Part shown: positions 19,163 through 34,138 of the stretch, in pieces | Layout: each line of letters starts with the position of its first letter | How positions within the stretch are numbered: the stretch's first letter is position 1 | Source of the DNA: Euzebya tangerina | GTDB lineage: Bacteria; Actinomycetota; Nitriliruptoria; Euzebyales; Euzebyaceae | Assembly: GCF_003074135.1 (NCBI RefSeq) | Contig: NZ_PPDK01000001.1 | Span: 2,604,001-2,668,000, forward strand | Reading direction: 5' to 3' | DNA: 64,000 nucleotides | Made by a program: the position numbers and the translations under genes | Notes under the pieces: model-generated | The model's database searches: none | What the model was told of the DNA's origin: nothing | Seen by the model: the letters and a program-made list of their open reading frames with translations, nothing else

Positions 19163-19207
19163 GGTCGAGAGAAACCTCCAGTTCCTCGATCATTGAAAGG
19201 CCGCCCG

Positions 19208-20539
19208 ATGCTCGCCGGATCACTCAACGAGTTCACCATGCTCGATGTGTTCTCGTTGCTGGCCACCACACGAAAGACCGGTGTTGTCAACCTCGCCGAC
19301 AACGGCAACACCGACCCTGGGGGCCCGGATGTGACGGGACGTGTCTGGGTGATTGGCGGCCAGATCTCCTTCGCGGTGGCCGAGGTCACGCAGGCGCCGT
19401 TGGTTGCACGACTGCTGCACAGCGGCGAGATCGAGGAGGACGCCATCCGCGACGTCGTCGGCGCCCACGCGCCTGACGCCACCACGACCGTCGCCGATGC
19501 GTTGACATCCCTCGGGCTTCCCGATGACCGCGTGCGCGAGGTCATCCGCGACCAGGTCGTCGACGCGCTGTTCGACATGTCCTTGTGGGAGGACGGCAAC
19601 TTCTCCTTCAGCGCCCGGGGCGATGACGACGCTGCCGCTGACTCCGGTCCGACCTTCCCCTCCGACGAGATCATGGACGCCGTCCAAGATCGTCTCCAGG
19701 AGTGGGTCACCATCAGTCGGGCCATCCCGGCCCACGACCTCGTACCCGGCCTGGTCACCCAAGCACCGACTGGCCCCACGGGTCAGGTCCTGGTCGACCC
19801 GCGCCAGTGGGAGGTGATGACCCTCATCGACGGGGCTCGGACGGTCGCCGACGTCATCTCCCTGACGGGACAGGGCGTGTTCACGGTCTGCAAGTTGCTG
19901 GCCGGCATGGTTGATGCGGGTCTGGTCTCCACCGCAGATCAGCGCGACGAGGGACCTGCCGTCGCCGCCACCTTCCAGCGACTGCTCGGTGCCGAGCAGA
20001 GCATCCTGGGCGCTCCCGCCGCTTCTTTGGCTCCCGCCGCCCCGGCCGCCCCGGTTGCAGAAGCAGCCCCCGGCGCCCCTGCGATTGCAGCACCCCCGGC
20101 CGCCGCCGCACCGGCTGCCGAACCCGCTCCTGAGCTCCCAACACCACAGCAGGGCGTCCCGACGCCCGGCGCCGAGGCCCCCGCGTGGGATGAGGCTGAG
20201 CCGAGCACGGAGTCGGAGGCCGCAGTGCCGACCCCCGACGCGCCGACGTGGACGGACACGACCGCACCAGGCCAGCCCGTGGCGCCCGAACTGGTCGCCG
20301 AATCGTCCGATGACTCCGTCCAGGCTGGCGAGCCCGGTGACTGGAGTCCGGCGGACATGCCACCGGCAGATGACCTGCCCGTGGACGGACCGGAGGCTGA
20401 TCTCCCGCCCCGGACGCCCTCGCCGGCAGCGGCGGAGGACGACGAGCACGACGAGGAGACTGACGCCTCCACCACCACCGCCGTCAAGGTCAACGACGAC
20501 CTCCTCTCCCGCCTGATCGGTGGTGTGAGCCGTGGCTGA
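19208..20539 (+). CDS. DUF4388 domain protein with long Ala/Pro-rich tail
   Basis: 443 residues. The first about 110 residues match the DUF4388 (PATAN-like) pattern: MLAGSLNEFTMLDVFSLLAT, a GRVWVIGGQISFAVAE strand pair, then a helical LVARLLHSGEIEEDAIRDVV; a winged-helix-like segment lies near 200-240 (VMTLIDGARTVADVISLT). From about residue 265 the protein is low-complexity Ala/Pro/Glu with acidic blocks, ending in a short helix (VNDDLLSRLIGGVSRG). GAAAGG at 19195-19200 is spaced correctly for the ATG at 19208. It overlaps the GTPase gene by 8 bp. DUF4388 proteins occur beside gliding and pilus GTPase systems, so it is a plausible partner of the next gene; inferred. Confidence 0.85.
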   Translation: MLAGSLNEFTMLDVFSLLATTRKTGVVNLADNGNTDPGGPDVTGRVWVIGGQISFAVAEVTQAPLVARLLHSGEIEEDAIRDVVGAHAPDATTTVADALTSLGLPDDRVREVIRDQVVDALFDMSLWEDGNFSFSARGDDDAAADSGPTFPSDEIMDAVQDRLQEWVTISRAIPAHDLVPGLVTQAPTGPTGQVLVDPRQWEVMTLIDGARTVADVISLTGQGVFTVCKLLAGMVDAGLVSTADQRDEGPAVAATFQRLLGAEQSILGAPAASLAPAAPAAPVAEAAPGAPAIAAPPAAAAPAAEPAPELPTPQQGVPTPGAEAPAWDEAEPSTESEAAVPTPDAPTWTDTTAPGQPVAPELVAESSDDSVQAGEPGDWSPADMPPADDLPVDGPEADLPPRTPSPAAAEDDEHDEETDASTTTAVKVNDDLLSRLIGGVSRG

Positions 20540-21107
20540 CGACGAATCTGCCGAGGACCCGATGGGAGCCGTCAAGGTTGTCGTCACCGGCCCCTGGGGG
20601 GTCGGCAAGACCCGACTCCTGACCGAGCTGTCCGAGAAGCCGCTGAAGGGCACCAGGCGCCGAATCGAGGATCCTCGATCCGGAGACGAGATCGTGGTGT
20701 GCGTGGACTTCGGCAACCTGAAGGTCGACGGCGACCTCCAGCTATTGCTGTTCGGTGTCTCGAACGCCATCGCCTACGACGAGATCTTCCGGATGCTGGA
20801 GGACGACGTCCTGGGCTCGATCATCCTGGTCGACGACACCATGCCTGCATCGCATCACGAAGCCGTCGACATCGTCGAGTACTTCGACCGCCGTGGTGAC
20901 GTTCCCTACATCATCGTCACCAACCGGCCGCCCGAGGGCCGCCCCGAGATGGCAGCACGCCGAGTCCGGCACTCCTTGCGTCTGGACGACGACGTCCGGG
21001 TGCTCTCCGGCGATGTCAGCGACGCCGAGTTCGCCAGGACGACCTTGATCCAACTCTTCGAGGCTGTTCGTGAGACGATACAACTCGACCCCGTCCCGAC
21101 AAGGTAG
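20532..21107 (+). CDS. MglA/CvnD-like small GTPase with degenerate G3/G4 motifs
   Basis: 191 residues of the Ras-like fold. The P-loop is GPWGVGKT (20-27). Where Ras-like proteins have a DxxGQ switch II the sequence reads LFGVSN (73-78), and the NKxD base-recognition motif is replaced by TNRP (130-133), so nucleotide specificity and hydrolysis may be changed. The surrounding VLGSIILVDDT and the segment before TNRP match the actinobacterial conservon protein CvnD and the bacterial polarity switch MglA. It overlaps the DUF4388 gene and precedes pilB by 13 bp. In Myxococcus, MglA sets the active pole for pili; a similar role here is inference. No MglB/roadblock protein is evident nearby. Confidence 0.85.
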   Translation: MADDESAEDPMGAVKVVVTGPWGVGKTRLLTELSEKPLKGTRRRIEDPRSGDEIVVCVDFGNLKVDGDLQLLLFGVSNAIAYDEIFRMLEDDVLGSIILVDDTMPASHHEAVDIVEYFDRRGDVPYIIVTNRPPEGRPEMAARRVRHSLRLDDDVRVLSGDVSDAEFARTTLIQLFEAVRETIQLDPVPTR

Positions 21108-21120
21108 TCAGTAGATCCAC

Positions 21121-22806
21121 GTGGCCAGAACCCGAAATCTGTCTGATGTGCTTCTCGAAGAGGAGCTCATCTCGGCTGACGACCTCGAAAAGGCGCGCCA
21201 TGAGGCGCAGCGCCGAGGACGCTCCCTCGGTCGTGTGCTGATCGACCTCGGCATGTTCACCGAGGCCGGACTGGTCAAGGCGCTGGCCATCCACCTGGGC
21301 CTCGAGTTCGTCGAGCTCGAGGGCGTGGACATCGACCACGTCGCCGCCTCCAAGATCCCCGAGCACATCGCCCGCCGCTACTGCGTGTTCCCCTTCGGCT
21401 ACACCGATGACGGGGACCTCAAGGTTGCGATGGCCGACCCCTCCAACGTCATTGCCCTGGACGACATCCGGACCATCTGTGATGCCGAGATCCAGCCCGT
21501 CGTCGCCAGCCGAGCCGACATCACCGCGCAGCTGGACAAGTTCGGCGGCATGGGCGGGGATTCCATGGACGCACTCGCCGGCGACCTCCAGCTCCAGGAG
21601 GACGACGACCTGGAGGACCTGGACGATGCGGGCATCGACGACGCTCCCATCGTCAAGTTCGTCAACGCGCTGATCTCCCAGGCCGTGGGCGACCGCGCCT
21701 CCGATATCCACATCGAGCCGACCGAGACCGAGGTGCGCGTCCGCTACCGCATCGACGGTGTGCTCCACGAGATCACCTCGCAGACCCGGAAGATCCATGC
21801 AGGTGTGGTCTCCCGTCTGAAGATCATGGCCGACCTCGACATCGCCGAACGGCGCATCCCGCAGGACGGTCGGATCTCATTGATGCTGGGCAAGAAGAAG
21901 ATCGACCTGCGTGTCTCGACCCTCCCCACGGTGTATGGGGAGAAGGTCGTGATGAGGATCCTGGACAAGTCCTCGATCATGCTGGACCTGACCGACCTCG
22001 GGTTCACCGACCACAACTACGAGATGTTCTCGGCGTCGTTCAGGAAGCCGTACGGCCTGATCCTGGTCACCGGACCCACTGGTTCCGGGAAGTCCACGTC
22101 GCTGTACGCCACCCTGAACAAGATCTCCAAGCCCGAGATCAACATCGTCACCACGGAGGACCCGGTCGAGTACCGGCTGCCAGGCATCTCACAGGTGCAG
22201 GTCAACAAGAAAGCCGGTCTGACCTTCGAGGCGGCCCTTCGATCGATTCTCCGTCAGGACCCCGACGTGATCCTGGTCGGTGAGATGCGTGACCACGAAA
22301 CGGCCCAGATCGGGTTGGAGGCCGCCCTGACCGGTCACCTCGTGCTCTCCACGCTCCACACCAACGACGCCCCCTCCGCCGTGACCCGTCTGACCGAGAT
22401 GGGCATCGACCCGTTCCTCGTCTCCTCAGCCGCCGACTGCGTGCTGGCACAGCGTCTGGCCCGGCGCCTGTGCAGCAAGTGCAAGACGGAGTACCGCGCC
22501 GAACTCGCCGAGCTGCAGGCCGCCGGCTTGCCCGTCACCGAGGACGACCTCGACCGCTTCCCGCCGCTCATGCGGGCCGTCGGCTGCGCCCACTGCGGCG
22601 GCACCGGCTACCGCGGCCGCCTGGCCATCCACGAGGTCATGCAGGTCTCCGAGGAGATCGAGCGGCTGATCGTGACCGGGGCCTCAACCGACGAGATCGC
22701 CAAGACGGCGCAGGCCCAGGGCATGCGCACCCTCCGCGAGGACGGCCTGCACAAGGTCGTGCAGGGCATCACGACGCTCGAGGAGATCGGCCGCGTCGTC
22801 GTCTGA
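21121..22806 (+). CDS. pilB: Type IV pilus extension ATPase
   Basis: Hexameric cytoplasmic ATPase that drives pilin polymerisation. 561 residues. The N-terminal domain (1-150) is of the MshEN/T2SSE_N type, with RSLGRVLIDLGMFTEAGLVK fitting the c-di-GMP-binding repeat. The catalytic part has Walker A GPTGSGKST (318-326), the Asp box EDPVEYRL, Walker B VILVGEMRD and the His box LSTLHTNDA. A tetracysteine zinc site follows: C-SK-C and C-AH-C in CSKCKTEY and CAHCGGTGYRG. GTG start, co-transcribed with the GTPase gene. Confidence 0.96.
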   Translation: MARTRNLSDVLLEEELISADDLEKARHEAQRRGRSLGRVLIDLGMFTEAGLVKALAIHLGLEFVELEGVDIDHVAASKIPEHIARRYCVFPFGYTDDGDLKVAMADPSNVIALDDIRTICDAEIQPVVASRADITAQLDKFGGMGGDSMDALAGDLQLQEDDDLEDLDDAGIDDAPIVKFVNALISQAVGDRASDIHIEPTETEVRVRYRIDGVLHEITSQTRKIHAGVVSRLKIMADLDIAERRIPQDGRISLMLGKKKIDLRVSTLPTVYGEKVVMRILDKSSIMLDLTDLGFTDHNYEMFSASFRKPYGLILVTGPTGSGKSTSLYATLNKISKPEINIVTTEDPVEYRLPGISQVQVNKKAGLTFEAALRSILRQDPDVILVGEMRDHETAQIGLEAALTGHLVLSTLHTNDAPSAVTRLTEMGIDPFLVSSAADCVLAQRLARRLCSKCKTEYRAELAELQAAGLPVTEDDLDRFPPLMRAVGCAHCGGTGYRGRLAIHEVMQVSEEIERLIVTGASTDEIAKTAQAQGMRTLREDGLHKVVQGITTLEEIGRVVV

Positions 22807-22819
22807 CGGCGAGGCTGGC

Positions 22820-22841
22820 ACCCTGGACGCCCTGCCAGGGT
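22820..22841 (+). terminator. Possible weak terminator after pilB
   Basis: ACCCTGG and CCAGGGT form a 7-bp stem around an 8-nt loop, 14 bp after the pilB stop. There is no T-run, so termination would be inefficient; it may only be a stabilising hairpin. Confidence 0.35.
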
Positions 22842-22885
22842 CCACCCATGGGGTCGAACCCGGTCAGCATCTTGGCTGAGGTTGC

Positions 22886-22913
22886 TCAAGTCGCCCAGGT
22901 CGTGCGCCGATGA
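22886..22913 (+). promoter_or_regulatory. FliA/SigD/WhiG-type promoter upstream of pilT
   Basis: TCAAGTCG (22886-22893), 12 nt, then GCCGATGA (22906-22913). Same layout as the other pilus-locus promoters. Predicted leader before the pilT ATG is about 80 nt. Confidence 0.75.
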
Positions 22914-22926
22914 TGTACCCACCGCC

Positions 22927-22984
22927 GCTCGTGCCCGCACGAGCTTCCTCGTGACACCACCGGGTGTCACCCCAATCGTGTCAC
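22927..22984 (+). promoter_or_regulatory. Structured pilT leader with two hairpins and a competing strand
   Basis: GCTCGTG/CACGAGC form a perfect stem at 22927-22944. A second perfect 8-bp stem is GTGACACC/GGTGTCAC at 22951-22970. GTGTCAC occurs again at 22978-22984, just before the ribosome site, and could replace the 3' arm of the second stem. This layout allows two exclusive folds. No known riboswitch family is recognised. Confidence 0.5.
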
Positions 22985-22998
22985 CAACTGGGAGCACC

Positions 22999-24870
22999 AT
23001 GAGCCAGTTACAGCAACCGTCCGCCCCTCCAGCGCCTGCAGCGCCGTCGACCCCCAGCCTGGGCGACATCCTGATCGAACAGGGTGTCCTCAGCCCGGAG
23101 CGGCTGCAGCAGGCCCAGGCCGTGCAATCGATGAACAACACCAGCCTGGGCAAGACGCTGGTCGAGATGCAGATGGCCAGCGAGGAGCAGATCGTCTCCG
23201 CCGTCGCCGTCCAGATCGGCGTCCCCTTCGCCGAGGTTCGGCCCGGCACCGTCGACCCGACCGCGGCGTCCCTGCTGCCGCGCGATGTCGCCCGTGAACT
23301 GGTTGCACTGCCGGTGCGCTTCACCGACGACAACTCCTCACTGCTCGTTGCGCTGGCCGATCCGGGCAACTCGGGGGCGCTGGAGCAGATCAGTGCCATC
23401 ACGAGCATGCCGACCGCTCCGGCCCTGGCCGTGCGCGCCAACCTGATGCAAGCCATCGAGCACCTGGCCGACGCGTCAGCCGAGGGAACGGTCAGCCTGC
23501 CCGTCACCGGCGGCGGCACGGACGACCCGAGTGCGGGCTCGGCCACGCCCGACAACGTCACGTCGCTGCCCGAGCGCCGTCCCGGCGCAGGCGGGAGTGA
23601 CGAGGAGCCGAACACCGGCCTGATGACCCGAGACCGTGCTCTGCTCGACGAGTTGGTGGCCGAGGCGGGCGCCAACGATGAGCCGGCCCTGCCCGCCGGT
23701 CGCATGGAGCCCCTGCCGACGCAGGAGCGCGCCCCGGCAGCGATGCCCTCGCGCCCGCAGCCCGTGACCGACGGTGGCGACCCGAAGCTGGCCTACGAGG
23801 TCGAGTCGGAGTTCGACATGGACGCCGCGCTGCTGGAGCTGATCGAGCGCGGCGGCTCCGACCTCCACCTGACTGTCGGCATCCCCCCGGCGATCCGCGT
23901 CAACGGTGAGCTGGAGCACCTCAAGCAGCAGCCGTTGGAGGGGGAGGGGCTGCGCAACGCCCTGTACGGCCTGATGACGCAGAAGCAGCGCGAAGCCTTC
24001 GAGAACGAGCTCGAGCTGGACATGTCCTACACGCTGCCCGGCCACAGCCGGTTCCGTGTGAACATCTTCCAGCAGCGGGAGTCCATCGGCGCCGTCATGC
24101 GTGTCATCCCCTTCGAGATCCTCCCGCTGGAGGACCTCGGGGTCCCCGCCCAGGTCTCCAACTTCGCCTTCGCCCCTCGCGGCATGGTGCTGGTCACCGG
24201 ACCGACCGGCTCCGGCAAGTCGACCACGCTCGCGTCGGTCATCGACATCATCAACCGCGAGCGCGCCAGCCACATTATGACCGTCGAGGACCCGATCGAG
24301 TTCCTCCACACCCACAAGAAGTCCGTGGTCAACCAGCGTGAGCTGGGCCAGGACACCCACAGCTTCAACAACGCTCTGAAGCACGTCCTGCGTCAGGACC
24401 CCGACGTCATCCTCGTCGGTGAGCTCCGTGACCTCGAGACCATCCAGTTGGCGATCACCGCGGCGGAGACCGGTCACCTGGTGTTCGGGACCCTACACAC
24501 CCAGGACGCGCCCCAGACGATCGACCGCATCATCGACGTGTTCCCGCCCCACCAGCAGGAGCAGATCCGGGTCATGCTGGCCACGGCGCTCAACGGTGTC
24601 GTGACCCAGCAGCTGCTGAAGAAGGCCGATGGCTCCGGTCGTGTGGTCGCCACCGAGATCATGGTCGCCACCTCGGCCATCAAGAACCTGATCCGGGAGG
24701 GGAAGACCCACCAGATGTACTCCTCGATCCAGGCCGGGAAGCAACACGGCATGATCGCGATGGACCAGTCGCTGGCCGACCTCGTCAACAAGGGGAAGGT
24801 CACCTACAACCACGCCCTGGAGCGTTGTGCCAACGTGAACGACTTCAACCGCCTCTGCGGTCGGGGCTAG
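22999..24870 (+). CDS. pilT: Type IV pilus retraction ATPase with N-terminal MshEN-like domain
   Basis: 623 residues, against about 350 for ordinary PilT. Residues about 15-160 are an added MshEN/T2SSE_N-like domain with two repeat-like segments, SLGDILIEQGVLSPERLQQA and SLGKTLVEMQMASEEQIVSA. A low-complexity linker runs to about 265. The PilT core follows: SDLHLTVGIPPAIRVNGEL, Walker A GPTGSGKST (401-409), the Asp box VEDPIEFLH, Walker B VILVGELRD, the PilT-type GTLHTQDAPQTIDRIIDVFP, and the late GMIAMDQSLADL. The ATG at 22999 has GGAG just before it. PilT depolymerises pili; the extra domain suggests direct c-di-GMP control of retraction, by analogy with MshE. Confidence 0.95.
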   Translation: MSQLQQPSAPPAPAAPSTPSLGDILIEQGVLSPERLQQAQAVQSMNNTSLGKTLVEMQMASEEQIVSAVAVQIGVPFAEVRPGTVDPTAASLLPRDVARELVALPVRFTDDNSSLLVALADPGNSGALEQISAITSMPTAPALAVRANLMQAIEHLADASAEGTVSLPVTGGGTDDPSAGSATPDNVTSLPERRPGAGGSDEEPNTGLMTRDRALLDELVAEAGANDEPALPAGRMEPLPTQERAPAAMPSRPQPVTDGGDPKLAYEVESEFDMDAALLELIERGGSDLHLTVGIPPAIRVNGELEHLKQQPLEGEGLRNALYGLMTQKQREAFENELELDMSYTLPGHSRFRVNIFQQRESIGAVMRVIPFEILPLEDLGVPAQVSNFAFAPRGMVLVTGPTGSGKSTTLASVIDIINRERASHIMTVEDPIEFLHTHKKSVVNQRELGQDTHSFNNALKHVLRQDPDVILVGELRDLETIQLAITAAETGHLVFGTLHTQDAPQTIDRIIDVFPPHQQEQIRVMLATALNGVVTQQLLKKADGSGRVVATEIMVATSAIKNLIREGKTHQMYSSIQAGKQHGMIAMDQSLADLVNKGKVTYNHALERCANVNDFNRLCGRG

Positions 24871-27554: not shown

Positions 27555-29272
27555 TGAACCGGCCAACCTCCCGCACCTCGCTCCGATCCGCCTTCCGTTC
27601 TGAGGAGGGCTCGGCGCTCATCGTCATCCTCGCCGTCAGCGTCCTGTTGTCGCTCCTGGTCGGGGTCGCCTTCTCCGTGGCCCGCCAGTCGATCGCGGTG
27701 GCAGACGAGACCGAGGAGTACAACGCCGCCCTCGCTGCCGCAGAGGCGGGGTTGGACGACTACCTGTTCCGGCTCAACTCCATCGATGCGTACTGGCAGT
27801 ACCCGGCAGCCGGAACGCCGCCGGACAACAACCAGGCCTTCGACAACTTCGTGCCGATCCCGGGTGGTGAGACCGACACCAACCAAGAGGACATCGGCAT
27901 GTTCACCTACACGGTGGACGCCTCGCAGCTGACCGCGACCGGTGTCATCTGGCTGACCGCGACCGGCTGTGCTCCCGGGCCCTGCGACATCAACACCGGC
28001 CCGACCGATGCACAGGAGTTCCGAACCCTGCAGTCCTCGTTCTCGCTGGAGAGCTTCCTCGACTACGTGTACTTCACCGACTTCGAGAGCTCGCCTCCGG
28101 TGATCTACCCGGGCCTGTTCGGCATCTCCGAGACCCAGGCACGCACCGACTGCAGCCGGCACCGCTGGGCCACACCCGGCCCAGCCGGTTACTGCACCGA
28201 CATCCGCTTCACCAGTGGCGACGTCATCAACGGTCCGTTCCACACCAACGACCGCTTCATCGTGGACGGCAACCCCCGGTGGCTGGAAGAGGCGACGACG
28301 TCCGACCCGGTCGACCCCCACTACGATCTCCGCGCCGGGACACCCCAGTTCGACGGCGGCGAGCCGACGCCACGCTCACCCCTCAACTTCCCCTCCACCA
28401 ACAGCGCGATCCGCTTCGACGCGGACCACATCTCCAACCCATCTGCCGAGGGTTGCCTGTTCACCGGTCCTACTGAGATCGTCATCTCCGGCGGGAACCT
28501 GCTCGTGCGCAGCCCCCTGACGCAGGACTCCGGTCCAGGCTGTGGGCTGTGGCCGGCCGGCAACAACGTCCGGACCATCCCCATCCCGCCCAACGGGGTC
28601 GTGTACGTCCAGGACCAGCCACCGTCTGGTCCGAACGGCGGCAACTGCACCACCGGCAACAGCAACGCGCTGGGCTACCCCTGGGGTGGCGATGACAGCG
28701 AGTACCCCTGCGGCGCTGGCGACGCCTTCGTGGAAGGCACCCTGGACGGTCGCCTGACGATCGCGGCGGAGAAGGACGTCTACATCACCTGGCACACCGA
28801 GTACGCGGGTGGCAACGACATGCTCGGCCTGGTGGCCAACGACCTCGTGCAGGTCTACCACCCGACCGACTACTACGGCTGCACGAACTGCGGCAACAGC
28901 AACCGGCGGGACTACTACGCCAATCTCAACGCAGGCCCGCGCCACCCCGGCAGCCTCTTCCGCAACCCGCGGATCGACGCCGCTCTCCTGAGCGTGCAGA
29001 ACTCCTTCATGGTCCAGAACTACAACCACGGACACATCCGCGGCACGACCCAGTGTGCCGGCGATCTGGGTGACCTCACCATCAATGGCGCGATCGCCCA
29101 GCGCTTCCGTGGGCCCGTCGGTACCGGGTCGGCCTTCTCGACCTGCACCGGGTACCTCAAGGACTACAACTACGACCAACGCCTCCGCTTCATCAACCCG
29201 CCGAGCTTCATCGACCCCGTGGACGCGGTGTGGCGCATCTCGCGCTACTCCGAGGTCCTCGCCAACTCCTAG
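27551..29272 (+). CDS. PilX-like pilus assembly protein, large
   Basis: 573 residues. The N-terminus has EEGSALIVILAVSVLLSLLV followed by FSVARQSIAVADETEEYN and AALAAAEAGLDDYLFRLN, the PilX_N pattern of a non-classical prepilin-like membrane segment followed by the AxxAAEAG helix. The rest is a large exported region rich in Asn, Gly, Tyr and paired Cys (GPGCGLWPAGNN, TNCGNSN), with no motif I can name. Co-translated with the PilW-like gene through a 4-bp overlap and 26 bp before pilC. Minor pilin or tip protein is the best reading. Confidence 0.82.
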   Translation: MMNRPTSRTSLRSAFRSEEGSALIVILAVSVLLSLLVGVAFSVARQSIAVADETEEYNAALAAAEAGLDDYLFRLNSIDAYWQYPAAGTPPDNNQAFDNFVPIPGGETDTNQEDIGMFTYTVDASQLTATGVIWLTATGCAPGPCDINTGPTDAQEFRTLQSSFSLESFLDYVYFTDFESSPPVIYPGLFGISETQARTDCSRHRWATPGPAGYCTDIRFTSGDVINGPFHTNDRFIVDGNPRWLEEATTSDPVDPHYDLRAGTPQFDGGEPTPRSPLNFPSTNSAIRFDADHISNPSAEGCLFTGPTEIVISGGNLLVRSPLTQDSGPGCGLWPAGNNVRTIPIPPNGVVYVQDQPPSGPNGGNCTTGNSNALGYPWGGDDSEYPCGAGDAFVEGTLDGRLTIAAEKDVYITWHTEYAGGNDMLGLVANDLVQVYHPTDYYGCTNCGNSNRRDYYANLNAGPRHPGSLFRNPRIDAALLSVQNSFMVQNYNHGHIRGTTQCAGDLGDLTINGAIAQRFRGPVGTGSAFSTCTGYLKDYNYDQRLRFINPPSFIDPVDAVWRISRYSEVLANS

Positions 29273-29298
29273 GCTCTCGCCAACTGCAAGGAACCGCC

Positions 29299-30528
29299 AT
29301 GGCTGATTCACTGACATTTGAGTACACGGTCCGCGACAAGACGGGCCAGACCAAGACCGGCACCATGACCGGTGCCACCGCCAAGGCGGTCTCCGATCGT
29401 CTGCGCGAGTCCGGATACGCCCCGCTCTCCGTCACCGAGCAGAAGGAGTCGCTCGGCCAGAAGGAGCTGTCGATCCCCGGGTTCGGTGGCAAGAAGGTCG
29501 GCCTCAAGGACCTGGCCATCTTCGCCCGCCAGTTCGCCACCATGATCAACTCGGGGCTCTCGTTGATTCGGGCCCTGAACATCCTGGCGCAGCAGACCGA
29601 GAACCCGACGCTCGCCGACATCATCAGCGAAGTGCGGTCCGAGGTCGAGCAGGGCCGACCGCTGTCCAGTGCGATGGCCGACCACGAGGCCTTCCCCAAG
29701 CTGTTCATCGCCATGGTGAAGGCGGGCGAGACCGCGGGTCTGCTGGACTCGGTCCTGATCCGCGTCGCCAACACGCTCGAGGCCGACCTGGCACTGCGCC
29801 GGAAGATCAAGTCGGCGATGACCTACCCCGTGATCGTGCTGATCATGGCCGTCGGGCTGTCCTCGGCGATGATCATCTTCATCGTTCCGACCTTCGAGGG
29901 TCTGTTCACCTCACTGGGTGGGGAACTGCCGTTGCCGACCCAGGTCCTGGTGACGCTCTCGGAGCTGATGCGCGGCTTCTGGTACATCCTCCTGCTCCTC
30001 CCCATCGTGGCGTGGAAGAGCTTCGAGTACGCCCGGAAGCAGCCCAAGGTCCGCTTCTTCCTGGACCAGTGGAAGTTGAAGGTCCCCGTCTTCGGATCGC
30101 TGTTCCACAAGGTCGCCCTCTCCCGCTTCACGCGGAACCTGGGCTCGCTGCTGAAGGCCGGTGTGCCGATCCTGCAGGCGCTCGAGATCTCCTCCGACAC
30201 CGTCAACAACGGCGTGATGTCAAACGCGATCGACGACGTGATCTTGGCGGTCAAGGAGGGTGAGTCGATGGCGACCCCCCTGTCCAAGCATGAGGTGTTC
30301 CCGCCCATGACCGTCCAGATGATCTCGGTCGGGGAGGAGACCGGTGCGATCGATGAGATGCTCGAGAAGATCTCTGACTTCTACGACCAGGAGGTCGAGG
30401 CCACCACGGAGCAGCTGACCGCGCTGCTCGAGCCCGTGATGATCGCCGTCCTCGGTGGGATCGTCGGCGGTATGGTCATCGCCCTGTACATGCCGATGTT
30501 CAAGATCTTCGATCTGGTCAACCAGTAG
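29299..30528 (+). CDS. pilC: Type IV pilus inner-membrane platform protein
   Basis: 409 residues, polytopic. It has the duplicated GspF/PilC domain: FARQFATMINSGLSLIRALN in the first repeat and FTRNLGSLLKAGVPILQALE in the second, with three membrane helices (two in the middle, around 175-195 and 225-245, and one at the C-terminus, MIAVLGGIVGGMVIALYMPM). PilC transmits rotation from PilB/PilT to the growing pilin fibre. The ATG at 29299 follows AAGGA at 29289-29293. Last gene of the minor-pilin operon, followed by a strong hairpin. Confidence 0.95.
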   Translation: MADSLTFEYTVRDKTGQTKTGTMTGATAKAVSDRLRESGYAPLSVTEQKESLGQKELSIPGFGGKKVGLKDLAIFARQFATMINSGLSLIRALNILAQQTENPTLADIISEVRSEVEQGRPLSSAMADHEAFPKLFIAMVKAGETAGLLDSVLIRVANTLEADLALRRKIKSAMTYPVIVLIMAVGLSSAMIIFIVPTFEGLFTSLGGELPLPTQVLVTLSELMRGFWYILLLLPIVAWKSFEYARKQPKVRFFLDQWKLKVPVFGSLFHKVALSRFTRNLGSLLKAGVPILQALEISSDTVNNGVMSNAIDDVILAVKEGESMATPLSKHEVFPPMTVQMISVGEETGAIDEMLEKISDFYDQEVEATTEQLTALLEPVMIAVLGGIVGGMVIALYMPMFKIFDLVNQ

Positions 30529-30592: not shown

Positions 30593-31021
30593 TCAGACCG
30601 GTGCGAAGAACCGGAGCTTCGGGTAGCGAGCAAACCCGCGGTCCTCAGTTGCTATCCGCGCCCCGTGTGACAGGGCGAGTGCCGCCAAGAAGGCGTCCGG
30701 GACTTTGTTGGCTGCGATGAGGGGATCAGCCTCAGCCAGCCGCTGCATGGTCTGCCACACGATCGGGCCGGCGGGTAACCATGTGGCGCGGGGCGCCGTG
30801 ATCAGCTGGTGAACGAACTGGAGGGCTTGGTCGGTCGGGGCGGGGGAGTCGAAGACCCTCCCATTCGTGACGACGCGCACAAGACCGGCCAGGACCGTGT
30901 CGACCAAGGCCAGTTGCTCGGAGCCCAAGACGACAGCGTTGAGCCAGTCGGCGTACTGCTCGTGGTTCGGCGACTCAGCCTTGAAGGCGTAGACGAGCAC
31001 GTTGACGTCGGGCAGGATCAC
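30593..31021 (-). CDS. VapC-like PIN-domain ribonuclease toxin
   Basis: 142 residues. PIN-domain signature residues are ILPDVNVLVYAFK (first catalytic Asp), the mid-protein acidic residue near LVDTVLAGLVRVV, and the late NKVPDAFLAALAL and ATEDRGFARYP. Family members cut tRNA or rRNA and are neutralised by the cognate VapB. The GTG start overlaps the antitoxin stop by 4 bp (GTGA), the standard VapBC arrangement. It is inserted between pilC and the pilA riboswitch on the opposite strand. Confidence 0.9.
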   Translation of the reverse strand: MILPDVNVLVYAFKAESPNHEQYADWLNAVVLGSEQLALVDTVLAGLVRVVTNGRVFDSPAPTDQALQFVHQLITAPRATWLPAGPIVWQTMQRLAEADPLIAANKVPDAFLAALALSHGARIATEDRGFARYPKLRFFAPV

Positions 31022-31260
31022 GTGTCGTCGCCGTCGAGGGCCTCCCACAAGGCCTCTCGGTCCGACAGGTTGATCAACGGCCGTGTGTCGGGGTCCCCGT
31101 GTGTCGGCAGTCGCTCTCGGGTGGCGGGCTGCTGTGCGGCCTTGTCGAGCAACTCTCGCAGAGCCTCCTCGACCACGCTGGTGAACGTTCGTCCTTGGGA
31201 CGCAGCGTGCCGTCTGGCGGCATCCGCCAACGACTGGGGCAGCTTGATGGTCGTGCGCAT
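31018..31260 (-). CDS. VapB-like ribbon-helix-helix antitoxin
   Basis: 80 residues. The N-terminus MRTTIKLPQSLADAARRHAA is a ribbon-helix-helix DNA-binding fold, followed by a helix (VVEEALRELLDKA) and a C-terminal tail (RPLINLSDREALWEALDGDD) that would wrap the toxin. The ATG at 31260 is 7 nt downstream of a TATGCT box, pointing to a leaderless transcript; an ATG at 31272 is possible but inside that box. Expected to repress its own promoter together with VapC. Confidence 0.88.
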   Translation of the reverse strand: MRTTIKLPQSLADAARRHAASQGRTFTSVVEEALRELLDKAAQQPATRERLPTHGDPDTRPLINLSDREALWEALDGDDT

Positions 31261-31273
31261 ATGCCTGAGCATA
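31257..31273 (-). promoter_or_regulatory. vapBC promoter -10 with palindromic operator
   Basis: The -10 box TATGCT is at 31268-31273 on the minus strand. It overlaps two inverted repeats: GCATATGC (31257-31264), spanning the start codon, and ATGC-N4-GCAT (31261-31272). This fits an autoregulatory operator for the antitoxin; inferred from position. Confidence 0.5.
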
Positions 31274-31314
31274 CGCTTGCACCAATCCGTCCCTGGATTT
31301 TCCCGACAAAGTTC

Positions 31315-31342
31315 TAAAGGTCGCCCCTCGCACCGCCGATTC
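31315..31342 (+). promoter_or_regulatory. FliA/SigD/WhiG-type promoter of the riboswitch-pilA transcript
   Basis: TAAAGGTC (31315-31322), 12 nt, then GCCGATTC (31335-31342): TAAA-N16-GCCGAT, an exact match to the WhiG-type layout. Transcription would begin near 31349, just ahead of the riboswitch. Confidence 0.8.
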
Positions 31343-31370
31343 CCATGGTGTCCGCACAAAGTGGACAGGT

Positions 31371-31470
31371 GTGCAGAACAAGGCAAACCGGCTGAGAGGT
31401 CGGGACGCAAAGCCACGGGACCGCAAGCCACATACATCATCGGCAGGTCAGCCGAGCTACCTCGCATACG
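31371..31470 (+). ncRNA. Cyclic di-GMP-I (GEMM-I) riboswitch
   Basis: The conserved core is all present in order: AGGCAAACC, a P2 hairpin closed by a GAGA tetraloop, GGGACGCAAAGCC, a variable P3 arm, then GGCAGGTCAGCCGAGCTACC. These are the hallmark joining segments and the tetraloop-receptor half of the c-di-GMP-I aptamer. It lies in the 5' leader of pilA, 75-80 nt before the start codon. No clear terminator or ribosome-site-blocking hairpin is visible between aptamer and gene, so whether c-di-GMP turns expression on or off cannot be read. Confidence 0.93.
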
Positions 31471-31544: not shown

Positions 31545-31982
31545 ATGACCAAGAAGATCCGCGAGCGCCTCGACGGCGCAGAAGACGGCTTCACCCTGAT
31601 CGAGCTGCTCGTCGTTGTCATCATCATCGGCATCCTGGCAGCCATCGCCATCCCGACCTTCCTGAACCAGCGTCAGAACGGCTGGACCGCTGCTGCTGAG
31701 TCCGACGTCCGCAACGCGGCCCTCGAGGTCGAGTCCGCTGCCGTTGCCAACAACGGGAACTTCCCGGCCGACCAGGCGGCCTTCGACGCCCTGGCCGTTG
31801 AGTCGTCTGAGAACGTGACCCTGCGTTACGTCGCTGACAACACCGCTGGCGCCCAGGCGTTCTGCATCGAGGCTGGTCACTCCCAGCTTGGTGCTGCCAC
31901 TGACGACCACGCTGTCTACGACTCCGACAACGGCGGCGTTCAGAACCTGACCGCCGCTGGTGCCACCACCAGCTGCAACTAG
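31545..31982 (+). CDS. pilA: Major type IV pilin
   Basis: 145 residues. Leader of 15 residues ending EDG, then FTLIELLVVVIIIGILAAIA, the canonical N-methylated N-terminus with Glu at +5. The short globular domain has two cysteines (AFCIEAG and TSCN at the end) that would enclose a D-region loop, and a YDSDNGGVQN turn. AGGAGAG at 31533-31539 precedes the ATG. It is a single-gene unit bounded by a riboswitch and a strong terminator, which suits a highly expressed structural subunit. Its C-terminal region resembles that of the next pilin. Confidence 0.95.
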   Translation: MTKKIRERLDGAEDGFTLIELLVVVIIIGILAAIAIPTFLNQRQNGWTAAAESDVRNAALEVESAAVANNGNFPADQAAFDALAVESSENVTLRYVADNTAGAQAFCIEAGHSQLGAATDDHAVYDSDNGGVQNLTAAGATTSCN

Positions 31983-33097: not shown

Positions 33098-34138
33098 ATG
33101 GCTTCCGCAATAGGTCTCGACATCGGCTCCAGCGCCGTCCGCGCTGTGCAGTTGTCCGGTGGGCGCGGCCAGTCAACCGTCGACCGGCTTGGGCAGGTCC
33201 TGCTGCCGCCCGGCGCCGTTCGTGACGGCGAGATCGTGGAGGCCGGACCCGTCGTCGAGGCTCTCCAGATCCTGTGGAAGCAGTACAAATTCAAGGGCAA
33301 GCGCGTCGCAATCGGCGTCGCGAACCAGCAGGTGGTGGTCCGGCAGGTGGAGTTGCCGGCCATGGATGAAGACGAGCTGCGTGAGTCGCTGCCGTTCCAG
33401 GTCCAGGACTACATCCCGATCCCGGTCGAGCAGGCCGAACTCGACTTCGAAGTGTTAGACGAATTCCAGAACAGCGACGGCCAGCCGATGCTGCGGATCC
33501 TGCTCGTGGCCGCCGCCACCGAGATGGTGCAGAGCATCCTCGATGTGCTGAAGCAGGCCAAGCTGTCACCGACGGTCCTCGATCTCGACGCCTTCGCCCT
33601 GCTGCGCGCCGTCAACGAGCAGTCCGGCCTCACCGCGGACCCAGGTGTCGGCGAGATGGTCGTCAACGTCGGCTCCACCGTCACCAACATCGTCGTCCAC
33701 AGCGGCGGCGTCCCTCGGTTCGTCCGCATCCTCCTCATGGGTGGCAACAACATCACCGAGTCGTTGATGAACGCGACCGGCGCCTCGTGGCAGGACGCCG
33801 AGGCCATGAAGGCCAACCCGAACATGCCGCCCGGTCAGGAGAGCCAGATCGTCACCGAGCGCAGTGAGCGCTTCATCTCCGAGATCCGCGGCTCCCTGGA
33901 CTACTACCGAGCACAGACAGATGCCGTGCAGGTCCAGCGCGTCGTCCTCACCGGTGGGGGCGCGCTGCTTCCCGGTCTGGCGGCTCGGCTCGCACAGGCC
34001 GTCCGCATGCCTGTTGATCGAGGACACCCCATGTCAACCTTGAAGGTCGGCAAGCTGCCGCTCAATCCGGAGCAGCTGGCCGAGGCGGAACCCTTCCTCG
34101 CCGTGGCCGTGGGACTTGCAATGGGAGCCCTCGAATGA
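33098..34138 (+). CDS. pilM: Type IV pilus assembly protein PilM
   Basis: 346-residue actin-like ATPase of the cytoplasmic face. Features: AIGLDIGSSAVRAVQLSGGR (phosphate 1 loop), VVVRQVELPAMDEDELRESL and the PFQVQDYIPIPVEQAELDFE segment, NVGSTVTNIVVHSGG (phosphate 2) and VVLTGGGALLPGLAARLA (adenosine loop). PilM binds the cytoplasmic tail of PilN and couples the motor to the alignment complex. Its stop overlaps pilN by 4 bp. Confidence 0.95.
   Translation: MASAIGLDIGSSAVRAVQLSGGRGQSTVDRLGQVLLPPGAVRDGEIVEAGPVVEALQILWKQYKFKGKRVAIGVANQQVVVRQVELPAMDEDELRESLPFQVQDYIPIPVEQAELDFEVLDEFQNSDGQPMLRILLVAAATEMVQSILDVLKQAKLSPTVLDLDAFALLRAVNEQSGLTADPGVGEMVVNVGSTVTNIVVHSGGVPRFVRILLMGGNNITESLMNATGASWQDAEAMKANPNMPPGQESQIVTERSERFISEIRGSLDYYRAQTDAVQVQRVVLTGGGALLPGLAARLAQAVRMPVDRGHPMSTLKVGKLPLNPEQLAEAEPFLAVAVGLAMGALE

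Follow-up and report, generated by a model that had tools for sequence, protein, structure and literature searches.

A predicted PilT retraction ATPase carrying an MshEN domain with a seemingly degenerate c-di-GMP site in the type IV pilus locus of Euzebya tangerina

The 64,000-nucleotide stretch of the Euzebya tangerina genome analysed here (positions 2,604,001 to 2,668,000 of contig NZ_PPDK01000001.1; hereafter, the window) contains a type IV pilus (T4P) locus. Genes for a DUF4388 protein and a small P-loop protein are followed in it by pilB, pilT, prepilin-like genes, pilC, a riboswitch, a pilin gene, pilM, a gene in the pilN position that had no Pfam match, and pilO (Table 1). The subject of this report is the product of pilT, which is a PilT-family member by its core and carries a known domain family, MshEN, in a new place.

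Profile analyses of the PilT core (residues 274-612) gave 488.8 bits against TIGR01420 (pilT_fam, cut-off 319.1), whereas the window PilB reached only 174 bits. PilT retraction ATPases were the nearest solved structures to this core in a PDB search (E 1.5e-121 to 3.6e-106). The C-terminal retraction motif of PilT, usually given as AIRNLIRE, is present as AIKNLIRE, in which L564-E567 were invariant among 24 homologues. Ahead of the core, Pfam MshEN (PF05157) matched residues 74-160 (E 1.8e-13, 50.7 bits, cut-off 23.1) and the NCBIfam profile NF053729 (c-di-GMP_motif) matched residues 21-72 (50.6 bits, cut-off 38), where c-di-GMP is cyclic dimeric guanosine monophosphate. Searching residues 1-200 against the PDB with phmmer identified Thermus PilF (4.5e-40) and Vibrio cholerae MshE (5htl, 4.1e-13). 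The AlphaFold model of residues 1-170 had a mean pLDDT of 93, and its top structural matches were MshE (5htl, Z 15.4) and PilF GSPII-B, both c-di-GMP-bound. In the full-length model, residues 161-258 fell below a pLDDT of 50. Together, these data indicate that PilT is a genuine retraction ATPase, with retraction as its predicted activity, that has an N-terminal MshEN domain, a disordered linker and a normal core.

The original prediction, made from the letters and open reading frames of the window, had been that this 623-residue PilT had an extra N-terminal MshEN-like domain and linker, and it was borne out by Pfam, NF053729, phmmer and AlphaFold, with the profiles above their curated cut-offs and the fold recovered with high confidence. 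Chance or a start-codon artefact as the source of the domain was ruled out by the GGGAG sequence ahead of the ATG at 22999 and by the keeping of the domain in homologues. The absence of an N1/MshEN domain has been given as a PilT trait that separates retraction from extension motors (PMC11656802, PMC4624772). The window PilT departs from this rule, which in the reviews is a descriptive statement of size and not a curated family criterion. No description of MshEN, GSPII or T2SSE_N on a PilT was found in the open-access literature, most subscription papers being outside the search.

Table 1. Coordinates of pilus-locus features in the window, with the evidence for each.
Feature	Coordinates	Strand	Evidence
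pilB, extension ATPase, 561 aa	21121..22806	+	PF00437 E 5.3e-144; TIGR02538 659 bits, slightly below cut-off 675.65
MshEN domain of PilB, residues 1-145	21121..21555	+	PF05157 E 1.5e-18; NF053729 41.2 bits; phmmer to PilF/PilB/MshE structures
PilB ligand motif I, NLSDVLLEEELISADDLEKARHEA, degenerate: Gly3 to Ser, Gly10 to Glu, position 21 to Arg, Gln24 to Ala	21136..21207	+	
PilB ligand motif II, SLGRVLIDLGMFTEAGLVKALAIH: position 1 Ser, Gln24 to His	21223..21294	+	
pilT, retraction ATPase with N-terminal MshEN, 623 aa	22999..24870	+	TIGR01420 488.8 bits; PilT structures nearest, 5zfq 1.5e-121
MshEN domain of PilT, residues 20-162	23056..23484	+	Profiles, phmmer, predicted fold
PilT ligand motif I, SLGDILIEQGVLSPERLQQAQAVQ: position 1 Ser, position 21 Gln, Gln24 kept	23056..23127	+	
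PilT ligand motif II, SLGKTLVEMQMASEEQIVSAVAVQ: position 1 Ser, Gly10 to Gln, Gln24 kept	23143..23214	+	
Disordered linker joining MshEN to the PilT core, residues 161-258 (~98 residues)	23479..23772	+	pLDDT <50, full-length model
PilT motor core, residues 274-619	23818..24855	+	Profiles, full-length model, PDB matches
AIKNLIRE, PilT-type C-terminal retraction motif, residues 560-567	24676..24699	+	Sequence
pilC, platform protein	29230..30528	+	PF00482 E 3.7e-68
c-di-GMP-I-GGC riboswitch aptamer 5' of pilin gene	31373..31465	+	RF03167 62.6 bits
Pilin gene (pilA-like), 3' of riboswitch	31545..31982	+	PF07963 N_methyl E 6.6e-07
pilM, expected docking partner of MshEN/N1 domains	33098..34138	+	PF11104 E 3.7e-60; weak T2SSL match

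We gathered 49 non-redundant MshEN-PilT examples, all from Actinomycetota where they could be placed. Among class members having this PilT, nearly all had the fused pilT beside pilB, and the fusion also occurred in additional families of the phylum, an occurrence that ruled out a window-only oddity. Most other PilTs of the phylum were open frames of 350-400 aa, and several genomes, that of the window included, had an additional standard PilT elsewhere. In the window genome this second PilT (373 aa, 43% identical; L183, G000:C1:910140-911162) is far from the pil locus and falls in another PilT group on the tree; the genome also has a third MshEN ATPase, which is PilB/GspE-like and about 700 aa long (L002, L184; G000:C3:241028-241294). 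A scan of 84,980 species genomes used a single peptide pattern and its best 80 loci, such that rare fusions in other phyla could escape. Among these loci there were 15 fused PilTs, each with a known or assignable place in Actinomycetota, versus 63 plain PilT frames, the latter from Bacillota, Gemmatimonadota, Planctomycetota, Rokubacteria, Elusimicrobia and others. We rejected repeated, separate fusion across many phyla, as no fused PilT from outside Actinomycetota was found among the best 80 loci.

The MshEN label required seven changes on the tree built from 136 PilT cores, all within one 85-row Actinomycetota clade (support 96). In the tree of the 159 MshEN domains, a single branch (support 99) separated the whole set of 49 PilT-borne domains from the 110 borne by PilB. 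Because the PilT MshEN domains form one clade apart from those of PilB, one old fusion followed by losses (e.g., in the Cellulomonas group) is suggested as the simplest reading, both trees being quick searches in which shared divergence may help draw the PilT domains together. PilT would have gained the domain once, early in one lineage of Actinomycetota, from a PilB/MshE-type ATPase, with later losses in several branches. Some PilTs retain half of the domain, which is the C-subdomain in L029 (G018) and L099 (G094) and the N-subdomain in L057 (G086). In L090, L091 and L092 (G175, G202 and G219) of the same phylum, an N-terminal response-regulator receiver domain replaces MshEN (PF00072, E 5.8e-16 in L090), and these PilTs represent another retraction motor with a signalling domain.

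The c-di-GMP-binding motif of MshEN domains occurs in two copies of the form (R/K/L)LGxx[LVI][LVI]xxG[LVI][LVI]xxxxLxxxLxxQ (PMC5013675, PMC11731258). In MshE, substitution of Gly11 (position 3) abolished binding and substitution of Leu58 (position 21) weakened it tenfold (PMC5013675), and R9A also abolished it (PMC4624772). In PilF, single glutamine changes caused a 77- to 158-fold loss and a double change left no binding; of the Thermus domains, GSPII-A, which has a poor motif II and one position 24 occupied by His, is a non-binder, and GSPII-C binds despite Pro at one position 1 (PMC11731258).

The window PilT retains both Gly3 residues and both Gln24 residues (Gln43 and Gln72). It departs from the consensus in that position 1 is Ser instead of Arg/Lys/Leu in each motif, position 21 of motif I is Gln where Leu is expected, and Gly10 of motif II is replaced by Gln. 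The departures in PilB are those listed in Table 1, and neither of its position 24 residues, Ala29 and His58, is Gln. The MshEN domain of PilB had originally been described as normal, which held for its fold (MshEN E 1.5e-18, NF053729 41.2 bits) but not for its ligand residues, as both phosphate-binding glutamines and a critical glycine are lost. On a 14-point score of seven key positions per motif, for which the Thermus motifs were read from the phmmer alignment, the window PilT scored 8 and the window PilB 7; GSPII-A, the non-binder, scored 8, and the binders GSPII-B and GSPII-C scored 14 and 13. Neither window protein matched the relaxed two-motif pattern (PMC5013675), which was passed by no sequence of the sample and is perhaps too strict for the phylum. 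Based on these comparisons, the c-di-GMP pocket appears degenerate in both window motor domains, and we expect these to bind the ligand weakly or not at all.

Erosion of the site was also observed across the sample. Both Gly3 and both Gln24 were present in 6/49 PilTs versus 52/110 PilBs, and the paired score was 7.3 for PilT versus 8.9 for PilB (Wilcoxon p 3e-5). The six complete PilT sites were distributed randomly on the tree, with 6 changes versus a shuffled mean of 5.7. The entropy of the contact columns versus the rest of the N-subdomain was 0.81 versus 1.56 in PilB, and 1.42 versus 1.74, a much smaller gap, in PilT. Even inside the genus the complete site is not conserved, the two position 24 residues being Arg/Gln in G001 and Gln/Thr in G002 and G003. 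Because complete sites are rare and random on the tree, we consider that the domain is retained in PilT for something, yet that the complete ligand site is, to judge from these alignments, not what is retained. Individual species, including that of the window, may still bind c-di-GMP weakly, and the PilTs L059 and L084 are the best candidates.

The riboswitch ahead of the pilin gene scored 62.6 bits against RF03167 (gathering threshold 59) and 57 against RF01051 (35), lies approximately 80 bases ahead of the likely pilin start codon (ATG 31545) and was the only RF01051 match in the genome. At least 15 class members had a c-di-GMP-I riboswitch on the same contig as pilT and no more than about 11 kb away. 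Its position in the class was often 1.3-1.6 kb 3' of pilT (e.g., G016:C21:4344, G024:C55:192206, G010:C1:57482). The GGC variant has been grouped among the c-di-GMP riboswitches (PMC12452182), and with this as its predicted ligand, control of pilin synthesis by c-di-GMP through the riboswitch is well supported and class-wide. Control of the motors by c-di-GMP is not supported likewise, and the step from the presence of MshEN to a c-di-GMP input is a weak one. The proposal that c-di-GMP sets pilin synthesis, extension and retraction together consequently stood for the riboswitch and pilin (62.6 bits; at least 15 class members), and was found to be weak for the motors (8/14 for PilT and 7/14 for PilB). 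The genome had 40 GGDEF matches and, at 98% completeness, no match to a PilZ domain. C-di-GMP receptors here would therefore be of other kinds, and a PilZ/FimX adaptor of the Xanthomonas citri type is made unlikely by the same lack of a PilZ match.

Most likely, the PilT domain is retained for recruitment of the retraction motor and its docking to the inner-membrane platform (PilM side) used by PilB. A long flexible tether would join PilT to an MshEN (GSPII, N1) domain of its own, PilB and PilT would compete or exchange through like domains, and the most secure action of c-di-GMP would be that of the riboswitch on pilin synthesis. In T4P systems PilM corresponds to the cytoplasmic domain of GspL, and the MshEN-fold C-subdomain sits in the GspE-GspL contact of the type II system. 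We favour docking because the PilT C-subdomain matched EpsE/GspE complexed with EpsL/GspL (2bh1, 4pht; Z 6.7-7.0), the PilT-invariant columns are largely in the C-subdomain (A118, P122 and others), some PilTs retain the C-subdomain only, and pilM is in the locus. Taken as a whole, the explanation of a true PilT, with an MshEN domain acquired once, a docking role, degenerate pockets and c-di-GMP acting on pilin, has in our judgment a roughly even chance of being correct. Several points weigh against it. The 14-point score is calibrated by three Thermus domains only, and the position 1 rule may differ in this phylum, as position 1 is Gln or Ser even in its well-conserved PilBs. The window PilT has both Gly3 and both Gln24 and scores above the NF053729 cut-off, and L059 and L084, two PilTs of a sister family, have near-complete sites (12/14). 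L057 retains the N-subdomain only, contrary to a docking role of the C-subdomain, and the putative PilT-PilM contact is proposed from likeness.

The same near-complete sites in L059 and L084, the NF053729 score above cut-off and the same retained residues, to which Leu2 of both motifs can be added, could be explained by a PilT domain that binds c-di-GMP and switches or tunes retraction. The PilB site would have decayed and the signal would set pilin synthesis and retraction, not extension. Tolerance of Lys, Leu and Pro at position 1 in Thermus PilF (PMC11731258) is consistent with such binding, as is the need for receptor kinds other than PilZ in a genome with 40 GGDEF matches. However, loss of binding in MshE R9A (PMC4624772) argues against it, and so does a complete site that is variable within the genus and randomly scattered among 6/49 PilTs. 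Moreover, a hand-over of the sensor from PilB to PilT predicts reciprocity, and none was seen (Fisher p 1.0, 41 genome pairs); the scores instead correlated positively (rho 0.42), and we rejected the hand-over. We consider this account of the window unlikely. A broader claim, that the retraction motor is directly gated by c-di-GMP whether in the window species itself or only in sister lineages (e.g., L059 and L084), with the pilin gene under a c-di-GMP riboswitch, is a tentative possibility.

Joint action of c-di-GMP on pilin synthesis, extension (PilB) and retraction (PilT), as originally proposed, would fit with all three elements lying within about 10 kb and with the riboswitch being near pilT in at least 15 class genomes. 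The window PilB has, however, neither Gly3 nor Gln24 of motif I, nor Gln24 of motif II, and binding was abolished by the Gly11 substitution in MshE (PMC5013675) and by loss of both glutamines in PilF (PMC11731258). We regard joint control as very unlikely. The PilT MshEN domain could also be a structural leftover, or a hexamer-stabilising module with no specific partner, that has been tolerated and repeatedly lost. The several losses and truncations on the tree are in keeping with this, but nearly all class members having this PilT possess the full domain, in which C-subdomain residues such as A118 and P122 are invariant. The keeping of the full domain and of these residues points to selection on the PilT MshEN domain, and a leftover is decidedly unlikely.

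Additional genes were observed in the pilus locus. Between pilC and the pilin gene, the minus strand (30593-31467) encodes a PIN-domain protein (PF01850 E 2e-13) together with an antitoxin-like protein of the VapB/RHH type. Immediately 5' of pilB, the gene of the DUF4388 protein (PF14332 E 3.9e-15, 19193-20539) overlaps that of the small P-loop protein (20532-21107). The latter protein has a weak resemblance to Ras-like GTPases, and a PDB search with it gave no significant match. The pair may be a polarity module of the MglA/CvnD kind, a resemblance that the PDB search did not confirm.

In a 2015 study, the lack of an N1/MshEN domain in PilT was the reason for considering its direct control by c-di-GMP unlikely. 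The widespread PilT group with MshEN breaks the review rule in which this domain separates extension from retraction motors. It also represents a natural experiment, in that two motors of opposite action carry one and the same domain, whose ligand site has eroded in some species but is intact in others, and through this group the docking and sensing roles of MshEN are separable for testing.

The MshEN domain of V. cholerae MshE and the GSPII-A, GSPII-B and GSPII-C domains of Thermus thermophilus PilF have the same fold as the PilT domain over approximately 138 residues, and all consist of a two-motif helical bundle and a C-subdomain placed N-terminally on a T4P ATPase. These known examples are on extension ATPases, whereas the window domain is on a retraction ATPase, has Ser at both position 1 sites and has lost other contacts. 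The PilTs of Geobacter (5zfq) and Aquifex (2ewv) share the whole motor core with the window PilT; known PilTs, however, are 356-390 aa without N1, and the window PilT adds approximately 260 residues. The X. citri PilB N1 domain bound to PilZ (7lkm), with Z 14.3 to the PilT domain, is a case of an MshEN-fold domain in protein docking, and Xanthomonas PilB has been listed as a c-di-GMP non-binder (PMC10333796). That N1 domain differs in being on PilB, and the window genome is without a recognisable PilZ protein. The N1 domain of EpsE/GspE with EpsL/GspL is alike in its C-subdomain and differs in belonging to a type II secretion ATPase; in the window, the candidate for the corresponding partner is PilM.

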